A stretch of 64,000 nucleotides of DNA from Arthrobacter ruber (GTDB lineage: Bacteria > Actinomycetota > Actinomycetes > Actinomycetales > Micrococcaceae), in NCBI RefSeq assembly GCF_002954225.1, contig NZ_PPTH01000016.1, positions 377,114 to 441,113 on the forward strand. Reading direction: 5' to 3'. A program made the position numbers and the translations under genes. Below the pieces are notes generated by a model that worked only from the letters and a program-made list of their open reading frames with translations, searched no databases and had not been told where the DNA came from. Shown here piece after piece: positions 4,638 through 12,610 of the stretch; position 1 is the stretch's first letter; each line of letters starts with the position of its first letter.

Positions 4638-5864
4638 CTAGGAGAGACCGAACCGGGGACGGGACCTCCACCGGCGGGCCTTGAGGGCGAGATGCAGTTC
4701 CAGCCGCACCGTCCCGGCGAGGGGATCGACGCCGATGACCGAGCGGATCCGCGCCAGGCGGTTGTAGACGCTGCTGCGGTGCAGGTGGAGCTGGGCCGCG
4801 ACGTCCTGCACGGAGCCGTTCTTGTCGTACAGCAGCTCCAGGACCGGCAGCAGTTCCTCCACCCGGTCGGCCTCGCTCAGCTCGCCGAAACGGATGCTGC
4901 CGTGCGCGGGCGCCTGCCACCCGACGGTCCCGAGGAACTGGTACACGCCGATGTCAGCATAGGACGCCACGTCACCGAGGTGCGGGTCCACCGCTGCCGC
5001 CTGGACGGTATGTTGGGCATGTTCGAAGGCCTCGGCCAGGTCTCGGGGATCGGCCACGGGCTCGCTCAGCCCCAGGAGGATGCGGCCCGCTGGACGGCCC
5101 GCGCGCTTGGCGACCCCGGCCCGGTACCTGTCGAGGACCTGCTGCAGCGCGGTGGCGCCGACGCCGGCGGCACACAGGAGCACCGAGAACCCTGAGGCCC
5201 CGGCACTGAACAGCACGGGTGCGACGCCGACCGTCGCCTGGAGCGCGAGCGTGCGCTGGAGGAGTGCGGCCTCATGCGGGTCGTCGATGTCGGGGGGCGC
5301 CGCCGCCGCGAGCTCGTGCACCACCGCAAGACGCCACGGGCCGTTCCCGCCGAGCTCGTGCCACCCGCGCAGCTCCTCGCTCGCCGCTGCCACCCCGCGG
5401 CACGCGGCGAGGAAGGTGGCCTCCCTCCGGGTCCGGCGTTCCGAGGAGGCCGCGTCCGTCTCGAGGAGGAGCTCGGCGAGGCGATCGGTCAGCGGTCGGA
5501 CGACCGGCAGGGCGGCCAGGATGTCAGCTGCGGGATCCGCGCTCGACTGCTGCTGCACCCACAGATAGCCCACCCGGAACCCCCGCACGAGCAGGGGGAC
5601 GCAGACGCGGGCCAGCATCCCGAGGTCCTCGTTGGCGGGGACGGCGACGGCGCGGACCGCCTGCGCGATGCCGTGCCGGAGCTGCCACTCGTCGACGTCC
5701 GCCGGGACCTGCTTGCTCAGCAGGAAATTGACCCGGACGCGGTCCGCAGTGCTCTGGTGACTGCTGTACGCGAGGAGGACGCCGTCCGGGTCCTCGAGGG
5801 ACAGTCCGCGGCCCAGCTTCTGCGCGATCGACTCGACGACGTCATCGATGGCCTGGTTCTGCAC
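4638..5864 (-). CDS. PucR/CdaR family transcriptional regulator
   Basis: About 408 residues. The N-terminal part (LGRGLSLEDPDGVLLAYSS) resembles the sensory domain of PucR-type regulators. The C-terminal 60 residues are the PucR helix-turn-helix (SVQDVAAQLHLHRSSVYNRL). The frame is open for 20 more codons, but GTG 5864 fits best: TATCGT lies exactly six bases upstream, giving a leaderless start. It is transcribed divergently from ald, so control of alanine catabolism is likely. The better known actinobacterial regulator of ald, AldR, is of the Lrp family, so this is a different solution. Target and effector are inferred. Confidence 0.88.
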   Translation of the reverse strand: MQNQAIDDVVESIAQKLGRGLSLEDPDGVLLAYSSHQSTADRVRVNFLLSKQVPADVDEWQLRHGIAQAVRAVAVPANEDLGMLARVCVPLLVRGFRVGYLWVQQQSSADPAADILAALPVVRPLTDRLAELLLETDAASSERRTRREATFLAACRGVAAASEELRGWHELGGNGPWRLAVVHELAAAAPPDIDDPHEAALLQRTLALQATVGVAPVLFSAGASGFSVLLCAAGVGATALQQVLDRYRAGVAKRAGRPAGRILLGLSEPVADPRDLAEAFEHAQHTVQAAAVDPHLGDVASYADIGVYQFLGTVGWQAPAHGSIRFGELSEADRVEELLPVLELLYDKNGSVQDVAAQLHLHRSSVYNRLARIRSVIGVDPLAGTVRLELHLALKARRWRSRPRFGLS

Positions 5865-9740: not shown

Positions 9741-9785
9741 GAACAGCACGACGCCGGCGCATGCAGCGCCGGCGTCGTGCTGTTC
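9741..9785. terminator. Strong bidirectional hairpin terminator
   Basis: A perfect 20-bp stem (9741-9760 pairing with 9766-9785) closes on a 5-base loop. There is no U tract, as is common for actinobacterial terminators. It separates the FMN reductase gene from the convergent 63-aa gene and could stop transcripts from both sides. Confidence 0.85.
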
Positions 9786-9880
9786 GTGCCGAAGAACACC
9801 GGGAGGCGCCCGTTCGGGCCGGTGAGTACCTGGGGTGAACCCAATCCCTCCGAGGGGCGATCAGTGCGTCGGGGGAAGCA

Positions 9881-10072
9881 TCAGTGCCAGAGGTTGTCCG
9901 CCCAGGCGGCGTCGCGCAGATAGTCCTGCGCCGGCCCGATCTCCCAGAGCTGGCCCTGCGACTCGAGCACGCCGTCGTGCTGCATGGACTCCACGGTCTC
10001 CGACGAGCAGCCCAGGGCCTCGGAGAGATCGGCGTCGTCATGAGCGAGTACGAGGGTGTTCCTTGCGGTCAT
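9881..10072 (-). CDS. 63-aa protein coupled to the thiopeptide-type enzyme
   Basis: A 63-residue acidic protein of unknown function. The middle (DLSEALGCSSETVESMQHDG) resembles a small helix-turn-helix of the excisionase kind, and the C-terminus ends in an aromatic segment AAWADNLWH. The ATG overlaps the stop of the upstream enzyme gene as ATGA and AAGGA lies seven bases upstream, so it is made with that enzyme. It could be a binding partner or recognition protein for the enzyme, a small regulator, or less likely a second peptide substrate. I found no recognised family. Confidence 0.75.
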   Translation of the reverse strand: MTARNTLVLAHDDADLSEALGCSSETVESMQHDGVLESQGQLWEIGPAQDYLRDAAWADNLWH

Positions 10073-11043
10073 GATGCTGTCCTTCGCTCGACGGGTCCGG
10101 CGGACACGGGCTTCCATGTCCGTGCATACAGTCCCAGCGCCGCCTCTTCACGGGCCACGAAACCGAGGCGGTTGAGGGTCATGTGCGCCTGGTACACCGT
10201 GAGGTGCTGCGCGCTGCGGCTGACGCGCACCTTGTCCGCACGGTACAGGTAGGTGTCGAGCGCCCGGAACCACCGGCGTCGCCAGTTGTGCACCGCCGAC
10301 TCGGACGCGGTGGCGGCCATGAGGGCGTGGAAGCCCGTGGCCTTGGAGGCCACCTGGGCCGTCATGGCCTCGCGGACACCGGCGGCACGCGGGCCGACGT
10401 CGGCCGTGCAGGTGCGCAGGTGGCTGTCCCAGTAGAAATCCCAGGACAGGCGACGGCGGTCCGGCCAGCCGGCGGAGCGGGGACCGCGCATCATGCTCTG
10501 CGCCGCGTCGAAGAGCACCAGCGCTCCGAGCGCGGAACGGCTCTGCATGCGGGGGAACCGCTGATTGGCCCAGAGGGCGAATTCCGAACTGAGCTCGAAG
10601 ACCTCCTCCGCGAGGTGGAGCCCCTCCACGCCGCCGTACTTCACGAGGTTCGCCTCGAGTTGCGGGTCGGCCGGCTCCTGGCCCCCGGAGTAGTAGGTGT
10701 TGCTGGCGGGTGCCGTGAACTGCTGGCGCACCACCAGCAGGGGCAGCGCCGGGGCGCTGCGTAGCTGGAGTGCGCGCTGGAACGCCCGCAGGCGTTCGAG
10801 GACGCGCGGGTGGGCGTGGATGCTGAGCCGGACCTGGCTGACGACGCCCGTGGACGCGTCCTCGCTCCGGCTGAAGTACCAGCGCTTGGCGCCGAGTGCC
10901 TGAGCCTGCGCCACCAGCGGGGTGACCAGCTCTTCGATGATGCCGTCCGCTACATCGAAGCCACCCGTCGAGAGGGAGAGATGCCACCACTGAGTGCTGA
11001 CTGCCGTCCGTGAGGCGGTTCGAACGGCGGTCACCTGGCTCAT
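10069..11043 (-). CDS. Stand-alone LanB C-terminal / thiopeptide-type bacteriocin biosynthesis protein
   Basis: A 324-residue cytosolic protein that matches the C-terminal domain of lantibiotic dehydratases and thiopeptide cyclases (Lant_dehydr_C). Landmarks in order: QWWHLSLS near residue 20, the block PLVAQAQALGAKRWYFSR at about 42-59, VRLSIHAHPRVLERL at 71-85, the highly conserved KYGGVEGLHLAEEVF (135-149) and the helix LGALVLFDAAQ. In known systems this domain removes glutamate from glutamylated Ser/Thr or performs the [4+2] cycloaddition of thiopeptides; no glutamylation-domain LanB is nearby, so the reaction is open. AAGGAGAG precedes the ATG. It lies between the SWDWPK peptide gene and a coupled 63-aa gene, suggesting a small RiPP-like locus. 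Confidence 0.85.
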   Translation of the reverse strand: MSQVTAVRTASRTAVSTQWWHLSLSTGGFDVADGIIEELVTPLVAQAQALGAKRWYFSRSEDASTGVVSQVRLSIHAHPRVLERLRAFQRALQLRSAPALPLLVVRQQFTAPASNTYYSGGQEPADPQLEANLVKYGGVEGLHLAEEVFELSSEFALWANQRFPRMQSRSALGALVLFDAAQSMMRGPRSAGWPDRRRLSWDFYWDSHLRTCTADVGPRAAGVREAMTAQVASKATGFHALMAATASESAVHNWRRRWFRALDTYLYRADKVRVSRSAQHLTVYQAHMTLNRLGFVAREEAALGLYARTWKPVSAGPVERRTAS

Positions 11044-11094
11044 GGCTCTCTCCTTCAGGGTCTGTGGTCATCCCCGCTGGGGCGGGCTCTGGGG

Positions 11095-11116
11095 CCTCCG
11101 GGCTCTAGTCCGGAGG
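11095..11116 (-). terminator. Intercistronic hairpin after the peptide gene
   Basis: Arms CCTCCGG (11095-11101) and CCGGAGG (11110-11116) enclose an 8-base loop, nine bases downstream of the peptide stop and about 50 bases upstream of the enzyme start. A leaky hairpin here would give more peptide mRNA than enzyme mRNA, as is usual in RiPP operons. Its strength is inferred. Confidence 0.55.
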
Positions 11117-11125
11117 GCTCCTGCT

Positions 11126-11266
11126 CTACTTCGGCCAGTCCCAGCTTCCCGCCGTGGCCTGGCTCTTGGGCCAGTCCCAGCTCGCTGCGCTGATGGACTG
11201 GCTTGCCGGCAGAACAGCCCCCACCACGATCAACAGGCCCGCAGTTGCGCCGAGTACTTTCTTCAT
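11126..11266 (-). CDS. Putative secreted precursor peptide with two SWDWPK repeats
   Basis: A 46-residue peptide. Residues 1-27 form a classical Sec signal: MKK, a hydrophobic core LLIVVGAVL, then a small-residue cleavage region (ISA-A). The predicted mature peptide of 18-19 residues is S/A-rich with the hexapeptide SWDWPK at 29-34 and again at the very C-terminus, 41-46, spaced by SQATAG. The DNA of the two copies differs at one of 18 positions. AAGGAAGGA precedes ATG 11266 by about five bases; the longer upstream reading looks non-coding. It lies 82 bp upstream of the thiopeptide-type enzyme gene on the same strand, so it is a candidate substrate or a secreted signal. Confidence 0.72.
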   Translation of the reverse strand: MKKVLGATAGLLIVVGAVLPASQSISAASWDWPKSQATAGSWDWPK

Positions 11267-11641
11267 GGCGATCCTTCCTTGCCGGTCTCCCGGGTGGTCG
11301 AGCTGTGCCGCACTGCTGATCCGCAGTGGCCGGTCGCTCCGGAAGCCCCGTTCGGGCCGCCTGCAGACCGGCTCACTCAGAATGTCCGGCACGGGCCGAC
11401 GCTGTCCAGCGGTCCCGGTGGCCGTTTGTGGACATGCCGCGAACAGGACGCGGACCTCCGCCGCGCCCGGCTGTTACGCTGCTGAGCGGTGCGGAGAACC
11501 GCGGAATCACGGGGCTGGACGGCTCGCTTGCCCTCCCCGGATTGCCACTTCCCGCGATCTGTCATTAACTGGACATGTCATATTTTTCACCGCCTGATCG
11601 GCTGTTGCTGCGCCGGCGACCCGGGACAAGGACTGCTGCTC
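11267..11641. promoter_or_regulatory. 375-bp divergent control region of the peptide/regulator locus
   Basis: No gene is seen. For the peptide, TGGACA (11408-11403) and CATTCT (11384-11379) with an 18-bp spacer form a candidate minus-strand promoter, giving a ~105-nt leader that contains a CACTGC/GCAGTG hairpin. For the regulator, CTGTCA and TATTTT (11581-11586) are spaced 16 bp. Between them TGTCAT is repeated directly 16 bp apart (11560, 11576), overlapping the palindrome GACATGTC; GGACATG also occurs at 11430. These may be regulator sites. Confidence 0.45.
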
Positions 11642-12610
11642 ATGCTGGATGCGACATCGCTCGAGCTGTACCGCTACGCCGTCGGGCACCCCGGGTGGAC
11701 GCGCGCGGAGGCCTCGGAGGCCCTCGGCCTCACCCTGCGCCGGATCGAGACGGCCATCGGGGAGCTCGCCGAGCGCCGGCTGCTCAGTCCCGAGGCGGGC
11801 CGGCCGGACGGACTCGTCGCTGTCTCGCCGGACGTCGCGCTCGCGGACCTCGTGGACGCCGACGAGCGCGCCATGCAGGAACTCAAGTCGCGCATCAGCG
11901 GCCAGCGGCGTGAGCTCTCGAGTCTCCTCCCGACCTTCCTCGAGGCGCGCAAGAGCGTCCTGGCCAGCACATCCGTGGAGACGCTCGAGGACCCCCACCT
12001 GATCCACCGGGTGCTGATCGACTACGGACGCGACGTCACCGAGAAGGTGTACATCGCCCAGCCGGGCCAGGGCTCGACGGCGGACGTGCACGAGGAGAGC
12101 GTCCGGAAGGATCTCGAGCTGCTGGAGAACGGGGTCCGGCGCCGGACGCTCTACGACACGAGCACGCGCGACCACGTACCCACCCGCAAGGCCGTCGAGG
12201 CGATCGCCGCCGGCGGGGGCGAGTTCAACGTGCTGCCGTTCATCCCCCTGCGCATCCTCATCTTCGACGACAAGCTGGCGCTCGTCGGCCGCCAGCTCAC
12301 GCGCGACGACAAGGCGGCCCTCGTCATCAGGGACGCGAGCCTGATCCACATCTTCACGCACCTGTTCGACGTCGCCTGGGAGGTCAGCGAGTCCTTCCTC
12401 GCGCCCGGGCAGATCGCGTCGCCGCTGAGCAGCCTGCAGCGCTCCATCATCCAGGGCCTCGCCAACGGGCTGTCCGACGAGTCGATAGCGCGCCGCCTGG
12501 ACATCAACGTGAGGACCTGCCGCCGGCACATCGCGTGGATGCTGGACACCCTGCGGGCGGAGAGCCGCTTCCAGGCCGCACTGAAGGCGCGTGAGGCGGG
12601 CTGGGTCTAG
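11642..12610 (+). CDS. TrmB/LuxR-like transcriptional regulator beside the peptide locus
   Basis: A 322-residue regulator. The N-terminus is a winged-helix of the TrmB kind (YRYAVGHPGWTRAEASEALG...IGELAERRLLS). The middle ~170 residues resemble the phospholipase-D-like sensor part of such regulators (RTLYDTSTRDHVPTRKAVEAI). The C-terminal 60 residues are a LuxR-type HTH (LANGLSDESIARRLDINVRT). This two-HTH architecture is frequent next to peptide and RiPP genes in Actinobacteria. ATG 11642 has AAGGA about nine bases upstream; the frame is open further upstream but is not coding-like. Divergent position suggests it controls the peptide operon. Confidence 0.82.
   Translation: MLDATSLELYRYAVGHPGWTRAEASEALGLTLRRIETAIGELAERRLLSPEAGRPDGLVAVSPDVALADLVDADERAMQELKSRISGQRRELSSLLPTFLEARKSVLASTSVETLEDPHLIHRVLIDYGRDVTEKVYIAQPGQGSTADVHEESVRKDLELLENGVRRRTLYDTSTRDHVPTRKAVEAIAAGGGEFNVLPFIPLRILIFDDKLALVGRQLTRDDKAALVIRDASLIHIFTHLFDVAWEVSESFLAPGQIASPLSSLQRSIIQGLANGLSDESIARRLDINVRTCRRHIAWMLDTLRAESRFQAALKAREAGWV

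Follow-up and report, generated by a model that had tools for sequence, protein, structure and literature searches.

What kind of system is formed where a very small peptide gene stands beside a gene for a solitary LanB C-terminal domain and is faced by a divergent regulator gene? This question is raised by positions 9,741 to 12,610 of a 64,000-nucleotide stretch of Arthrobacter ruber DNA (contig NZ_PPTH01000016.1; the whole stretch is hereafter called the window), taken from a genome of 3.66 Mb in 18 contigs. By sequence comparison, the module composed of the peptide, the stand-alone LanB C-terminal domain, a 63-amino-acid protein (p63) and a divergent TrmB/LuxR regulator is conserved in Arthrobacter-type Micrococcaceae. 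The reading best supported by the gene arrangement, the repeated peptide cores and the phased boxes of the divergent region is that of a self-contained, pheromone-like peptide-communication module, to which a probability of about one half was given.

Organization of the locus

The following features were delimited:

9742..9784, no strand assigned: perfect 18-bp stem with a 7-nt loop between convergent genes, read from the sequence
9881..10072, minus strand: 63-amino-acid acidic partner p63, C-terminal LRDAAWADxLW (tblastn matches, alignment)
10069..11043, minus strand: stand-alone LanB C-terminal (elimination/pyridine-synthase-fold) protein, 324 amino acids (Pfam PF14028, AlphaFold2, Foldseek)
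11065..11086, minus strand: conserved untranslated block of the peptide-enzyme spacer (similar block in 48/52 spacers)
11126..11266, minus strand: 46-amino-acid peptide precursor gene with a signal-like N-terminus and two SWDWPK (open reading frame, ORF, and Shine-Dalgarno-like site; counterpart in 52/52 non-paralogue named loci)
11129..11146, minus strand: SWDWPK copy 2, exact C-terminus of the precursor (sequence)
11165..11182, minus strand: SWDWPK copy 1 (sequence)
11186..11266, minus strand: putative Sec-like signal segment, residues 1-27, of presumed boundary and function (KK start, 12-residue hydropathy 2.55)
11431..11438, no strand assigned: operator-like box 2, GACATGCC, 141 bp from box 1 (sequence and relatives; candidate binding site)
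11572..11579, no strand assigned: operator-like box 1, GACATGTC, a palindrome (sequence and relatives; candidate binding site)
11642..12610, plus strand: divergent TrmB-like + LuxR/GerE regulator, 322 amino acids (Pfam, AlphaFold2, Foldseek)

The precursor is translated as MKKVLGATAGLLIVVGAVLPASQSISAASWDWPKSQATAGSWDWPK, with the Shine-Dalgarno-like GGAAGGATCGCC immediately 5' of its ATG; the enzyme gene lies downstream, 82 nt from the peptide stop, and its own stop is overlapped by the p63 start as ATGA. The ribosome site, duplicated hexapeptide, intergenic distance and ATGA coupling described for this 46-residue gene and its neighbours in an initial annotation were thereby borne out. The terminator with which that annotation closed the operon was found as a perfect stem-loop that has no T-run and was left uncalled by the terminator scan; it is probably a terminator shared by both convergent genes all the same.

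Conservation and distribution of the module

Every one of the 35 genomes searched within the genus (the source genome among them) contained the enzyme, as did 1 of the 22 other genomes searched in the order; at E 1e-6, matches came from 9 of 396 genomes in the order and from 9 of 394 in the class (again with the source genome). Within its own genome the window enzyme is the sole PF14028 match, and plasmids gave no match at E 1e-5. All 30 loci fetched from the same-genus search carry an SWDWPK-containing ORF that stops shortly 5' of the enzyme and, except in L014, ends exactly with SWDWPK (29/30); four of the remaining five genomes also carry cores (NWEWPK in two), and one genome of the 35, G008, was left out of the peptide reading. 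Among 19 longer loci of the genus (L032-L050), the regulator and an adjoining aminotransferase were present in all and p63 in 18.

A scan of a genome collection covering 84,980 species led to 61 named loci, titled Micrococcaceae in every case but one; the scan patterns were biased to near relatives, and this number is no proof of absence elsewhere. Named loci and those of the G-numbered genomes overlap (L088 and L180 share a contig, as do L118 and L179), and their counts were kept separate. Identity of the window enzyme to the named loci reaches 93%, and by enzyme kinship the window locus appears to group with the Arthrobacter agilis group, which includes the locus of A. agilis UMCV2 (L069).

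Nine of the 61 named loci are lone second copies of the enzyme, none of which has a peptide, a p63 or a regulator match. Around the other 52, considered as non-paralogue loci, a peptide was found in 52, a p63 match in 51 (tblastn, E<=0.1; partial in the seven of the crystallopoietes group) and an adjacent regulator in 49. The small peptide system on a stand-alone LanB C-terminal domain that had been proposed from the window is strongly supported by these figures: since the peptide accompanies the enzyme in 52/52 loci, homologues of the enzyme do sit beside such peptides, and the ORF is conserved. In a converse survey of 20 regions, the regulator was close in 13; of these, 11 have the enzyme and 10 a WxW peptide (two judged by eye). 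The remaining 7, with distant regulators, had neither. An aminotransferase (mostly) and a flavin mononucleotide reductase (partly) recurred among the neighbours tested.

Several loci stand apart. The lone enzyme copies (L109-L112, L115-L117, L125 and L127) share about 45-55% identity with the window enzyme. L079 (WNZI01000025.1), titled Vibrio cholerae strain 35D, contains a locus of the A. agilis type in which peptide, regulator, p63 and a partial aminotransferase are present; its assembly is probably mislabelled or contaminated. In L076, the same species locus as L014 and L035, the second hexapeptide is lost and p63 was not found, and the locus is apparently decaying; in L128 and L108 the enzyme is split in two pieces.

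The p63 ending LRDAAWADxLW is common to most of 18 aligned rows. No Pfam family was assigned to the window copy, and the matches obtained with single members (E 0.019 to 0.25), together with one at E 0.055 in two members, were taken as chance. A resemblance to this ending was seen in L182, where an acidic 47-residue peptide with WAEAMW (4761-4904), similar to WADxLW, lies between a membrane-like ORF and a TrmB/LuxR regulator.

The peptide family

The precursors read have 7 to 93 residues and one to six short W-x-W cores, and a W-[DE]-W peptide ORF stands just 5' of the enzyme in each of the 52 loci. The core is SWDWPK in 25 of them (one copy in 9, two in 15, three in 1), SWEWF in 8, SWDWF in 5, NWEWPK in 3, VWDWI in 3 and fourfold VWDWPQ in 1, with AWDW or IWDW at the extreme C-terminus in 7. 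In the five SWDWF loci the entire ORF is MKSWDWF, i.e. seven codons, and a VWDWI precursor reads MKMASKVWDWI. Additional genomes yielded VWDWPQ in six copies (a 93-residue precursor), PAIWDWKN, PAIWGWPQKT, RIWAWPESW and GIYDWP; the central residue can thus be Gly or Ala, and in the IYDWP core of L145 Tyr replaces the first Trp. No cysteine occurs in the printed cores, and serine occurs in some only, at most once per core.

An automatic test for an in-frame W.W ORF stopping 70-130 nt 5' of the enzyme was positive in 51 of the 61 named loci, where dinucleotide shuffles led to an expectation of 0.3; it missed the nine paralogues and L076, which has its core at a greater distance from the stop. 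Across the 3.66-Mb genome the DNA word for WDWPK was counted two times, and this peptide gene accounts for both. When 11 precursors of equal length with two copies (the window and 10 of the 15 loci with two SWDWPK copies, aligned by position alone) were compared, none of the 12 core columns varied in amino acid (3 were synonymous), against 18 of the 34 others. Core copies within one gene carry the same variant (NWEWPK twice or three times, VWDWPQ four or six times), the variant positions common to copies being S, N or V before the first W and K or Q at the end; this sharing suggests that the hexapeptide is the unit of function.

A hydrophobic signal-like segment, scored by crude hydropathy on the open frame before the core, was detected in 35 of 52 precursors and is absent from 17, MKSWDWF and the three-copy SWDWPK precursor of L077 included. 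Export by Sec, which had been proposed for the window peptide, is consistent with the former and would not be universal, because 17 precursors lack such a segment and some of them are merely seven codons long.

The LanB C-terminal protein

The window enzyme matches the Pfam family Lant_dehydr_C (PF14028) at E=3.8e-15 (57.2 bits, cut-off 24.4) and the model TIGR03891 with 32.8 bits, under its cut-off of 48.45. Its AlphaFold2 model (pLDDT, the predicted local distance difference test, of 86.8) had MibB, TsrL, a [4+2] aza-cyclase, MadB and TbtD as best Foldseek matches, the thiopeptide [4+2] structures (TsrL, aza-cyclase, TbtD) at E 4.5e-7 to 1.0e-5, and NisB at E 1.2e-3. A LanB-like tRNA-dependent N-terminal domain (PEARL) was not found, Pfam and fold giving the C-terminal domain alone; when PDB sequences were searched with the profile of alignment A1 (10 enzyme rows), the single match, at E 0.87, was taken as chance.

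Residues were compared in alignment A4, which has 31 rows including four lone paralogues (L075, L111, L115, L127 and many close relatives were left out); positions R775, R784, R786 and R826 were placed via an alignment with NisB using a deduced chain offset of 3. The R786 column has Ser in the window enzyme and Arg in 15 of the 31 rows, among which is none of the 11 SWDWPK rows. The R826 column has Lys in the window enzyme and Arg in 11/31 rows; as C-domains adjoining a dehydratase also have Lys here, it is no sign of loss. The H961-like histidine, assigned by the HM..NR motif only, is kept in 29/31 rows. According to the excerpted text of PMC4979651, the NisB variants R786A, R826A and H961A transfer glutamate and do not eliminate it, and an excerpt of PMC4341554 states that R784A retains most activity and that H961A loses activity. 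The loss of Arg at the R786 position makes classic glutamate elimination unlikely in the SWDWPK clade, as far as the aligned residues indicate; other clades retain the Arg. The enzyme may modify the peptide.

In agreement with the dehydratase-free locus first described, the dehydratase family PF04738 had no match in the whole genome, but none of 14 controls matched either, so that its absence is unproven; the same search matched G793, a genome of the same family, at E=1.2e-4, below the cut-off. The LanC family PF05147 was likewise unmatched in the window genome, in a search that matched 1 of 14 controls. In a midpoint-rooted tree with several long branches flagged, the module enzymes, with the lone paralogues nested within, form one group (100/99) apart from four split-LanB-type C-domains.

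Regulator and operator-like boxes

The regulator matches GerE in Pfam (E=7.5e-8) and Regulator_TrmB with 16.9 bits, under the cut-off of 22.2. In its AlphaFold2 model (pLDDT 80.2, predicted template modelling score, pTM, 0.46) an N-terminal winged helix-turn-helix (HTH) is followed by a long helix, a phospholipase D (PLD)/TrmB-like domain and a LuxR HTH; the placement of the domains is unsure because of the pTM value. TrmBL2 (E=1.2e-13) and TrmB head the Foldseek matches, with PLD folds matched too, and the two-HTH regulator anticipated by the initial annotation is supported by this fold.

Two GNCATGNC boxes lie in the divergent region between the regulator and the peptide gene. The pattern G[ACT]CATG[TAG]C was found at least once in 49 of 49 such regions (5.3 expected from shuffles) and at least twice in 38 (0.3 expected), and as a pair 115-155 bp apart in 35 (0.05 expected), in counts that are inflated by the kinship of the loci, most of which share a gap of about 141, and for patterns picked after inspection of these same regions. 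An exact GNCATGNC pair is present in 45 of the 49 regions (allowed gaps 105-165). The gaps cluster at 109, 118-119, 129-131, 140-143 and 151-152 bp, successive clusters being some 10.6 bp apart; periods of 10.75-11 give a resultant length of 0.93, a value without null comparison. Since the steps across groups approximate helical turns, they suggest two sites that are kept on the same face of the helix.

Related split-LanB clusters

In G793 a C-domain with 34% identity follows an 827-residue Lant_dehydr_N protein and an M50 peptidase, and a TrmB/LuxR regulator 36% identical to that of the window stands downstream of the split LanB. In five genomes of 8.3-9.3 Mb from another family, a short peptide that starts hydrophobically (by eye) comes after a C-domain (34-35%) and ends in DMWG, DMWG, DKWI, DKWI and DEWI; in L135, the one detailed, genes for a PqqD-M50 protein and a Lant_dehydr_N protein lie ahead of that for the C-domain. 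A D-x-W-[IG] peptide is thus found in 5 of 8 clusters with related C-domains, by a pattern fixed after four of the five peptides were known. These clusters (L135-L139) possibly represent a wider, separate peptide family. The Arthrobacter module may have arisen as a stripped-down split-LanB cluster that kept the C-domain and the peptide.

Interpretation of the locus

In the scheme that we infer, which covers translation, export, trimming, modification, ligand binding, operator binding and autoregulation, the short ORF would give a pro-peptide that acts through its W-[DE]-W core (SWDWPK, present twice, in the window). Sec would export this precursor in the A. agilis and crystallopoietes groups, with trimming to follow; in the citreus group, where the ORF barely exceeds the core, a general exporter or action within the cell would be needed. 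Together with p63, the orphan LanB C-terminal protein would bind the aromatic core and would either mature it by a change other than Ser/Thr dehydration or hold it. The divergent TrmB/LuxR protein would be the sensor, taking the peptide or its product in its phospholipase-D-like middle domain, and its HTH domains would bind the two helically phased boxes, jointly switching the peptide operon and the regulator.

This pheromone-like reading was retained because the gene set is kept (the enzyme throughout the genus genomes, the peptide throughout the non-paralogue loci), because the core columns do not vary, core copies share their variant and the boxes are phased, and because of the TrmB/PLD/LuxR fold, the kin regulator of G793 and the D-x-W-[IG] peptides of related clusters. 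Several observations weigh against it. The regulator model is not that of an RRNPP-type tetratricopeptide repeat (TPR) receptor with an N-terminal HTH, and TrmB-type domains are known sugar sensors. No dedicated exporter, protease or importer was found among the neighbours examined, and action outside the cell could only be presumed for the signal-less precursors of 7 to 17 residues. The regulator is non-adjacent in L104, L107 and L119 and lies 9-10 kb from the other module genes in G332, and at L031, L140 and L182, three of the eight related C-domain clusters, no hydrophobic-start peptide ending in D-x-W-[IG] was found. The choice of the box patterns and the kinship behind their counts belong here too, and a genome search for more boxes with TGGACATGKC was uninformative, giving 25 matches against 13 with the reversed pattern, genic and intergenic mixed, and missing box 2 of the window.

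The same genes could also make a ribosomally synthesized and post-translationally modified peptide (RiPP) whose product is no signal, i.e. a small antimicrobial, a metallophore or a redox cofactor (pyrroloquinoline quinone and mycofactocin are precedents of peptide-derived cofactors), with the regulator as a pathway switch. The fold of a modifying enzyme, its kinship with split-LanB C-domains (some beside PqqD/M50 genes), the aromatic-x-Trp core of the examples read and tiny precursors such as MKSWDWF all fit such a product. We nevertheless hold it doubtful: no module resistance gene, transporter or oxidoreductase was found among the tested neighbours (wider neighbours were not systematically surveyed), and presence in 35/35 genomes with a slowly changing core would be unlike most antimicrobials. 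If the peptide were generally unexported, it might instead bind the orphan LanB domain, as a titrating pseudoenzyme, or the regulator, and act in intracellular regulation. The 17 precursors without a hydrophobic segment would then be expected, notably that of L077, and so would the non-Arg residues at the R786 position in 16/31 enzyme rows, all 11 SWDWPK rows included; the clear signal-like segment of the other 35 precursors and the hydrophobic-start peptides of five related split-LanB clusters render it unlikely.

Readings in which the core has no role as a peptide fare worse. The enzyme gene might be controlled by ribosomes stalling at Trp codons, in the manner of trp attenuation, for which the paired Trp codons, the very short ORFs of the citreus group and the conserved spacer sequence could be invoked (a block like CGCCCCAGCGGnGGTAACCA lies 5' of the enzyme in 48/52 spacers). 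Yet all six core residues, beyond Trp, are fixed in 11 precursors, the first Trp is replaceable by Tyr (L145) and x by Gly or Ala, and tandem cores and signal segments would be useless for attenuation. RNAalifold, run on 34 spacers, gave 2 pairs without any compensatory change, and a TTTT run occurs in 3 of 52; with no covarying structure and few T-runs, an attenuator was ruled against, and a regulatory leader is very improbable. A decayed, functionless remnant of a split-LanB cluster would account for the kinship with split-LanB C-domains, the dehydratase search without match and the degenerate copies L076 (no p63, no second core), L128 and L108 (enzyme in two); it is hardly credible when 35/35 genus genomes retain the enzyme, the cores are fixed and the four parts are co-retained.

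Comparison with known systems and significance

The sensing of signal peptides by cytoplasmic receptors is well documented for Bacillota, much less so for Actinomycetota. The Bacillota pheromone systems PlcR-PapR, Rap-Phr, Rgg-SHP and ComRS resemble the module in their short precursor, C-terminal active peptide and gene beside the regulator; some of their precursors have Sec signals, and XIP has a WW motif. They differ in their RRNPP TPR regulators, where a TrmB/PLD/LuxR protein is found here, and the present module, which is actinobacterial, adds a LanB-type protein, p63 and up to six cores. Archaeal TrmB and TrmBL2 share the winged HTH and PLD-like domain, whereas the regulator described here is bacterial, adds a C-terminal LuxR/GerE HTH and is paired with a peptide gene. 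The seven-codon gene of the microcin C7 precursor MccA also adjoins an enzyme gene, but MccB belongs to the adenylating type, unlike the LanB C-terminal enzyme of this module, and the peptide sequences are unrelated. The thiopeptide [4+2] enzymes TsrL, aza-cyclase and TbtD are alike in fold; unlike in thiopeptides, no dehydratase was found that could supply dehydroalanines, and the core has at most one Ser. In class I lanthipeptide clusters, the excerpted text of PMC7268733 notes stand-alone elimination-domain proteins, possibly catalysing non-elimination reactions, and split LanB with the same domain as a separate polypeptide; those clusters have LanB and LanC, whereas searches of the present genome for a dehydratase and for LanC gave no match, Cys is absent from the printed cores and the R786 position is Ser.

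No paper with SWDWPK, WDWPK, NWEWPK or KSWEWF was found in the open-access literature searched, nor was one on this module among the open-access papers listed for LanB C-domains, TrmB/LuxR with peptides, Arthrobacter pheromones or cytoplasmic peptide receptors. LuxR-related genes of Arthrobacter sp. UMCV2 have been studied, and the regulator could not be mapped to the gene names in the excerpted text (PMC9659744).

A wider proposal, which we put forward tentatively, is that of a new actinobacterial signalling type, with W-x-W pheromones encoded by anything from seven codons to a six-core polyprotein gene, a LanB domain freed from dehydration and given to other chemistry on the aromatic-acidic core, TrmB/LuxR receptors and phased operators, derived from a stripped-down PqqD/M50-type split-LanB cluster. 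If true, an elimination domain would have outlived its dehydratase, and the peptides would be among the shortest gene-encoded peptide substrates. As a module core to a common soil genus, the locus is open to experiment in the laboratory strain A. agilis UMCV2, with SWDWPK as predicted ligand, a candidate receptor and candidate operators.

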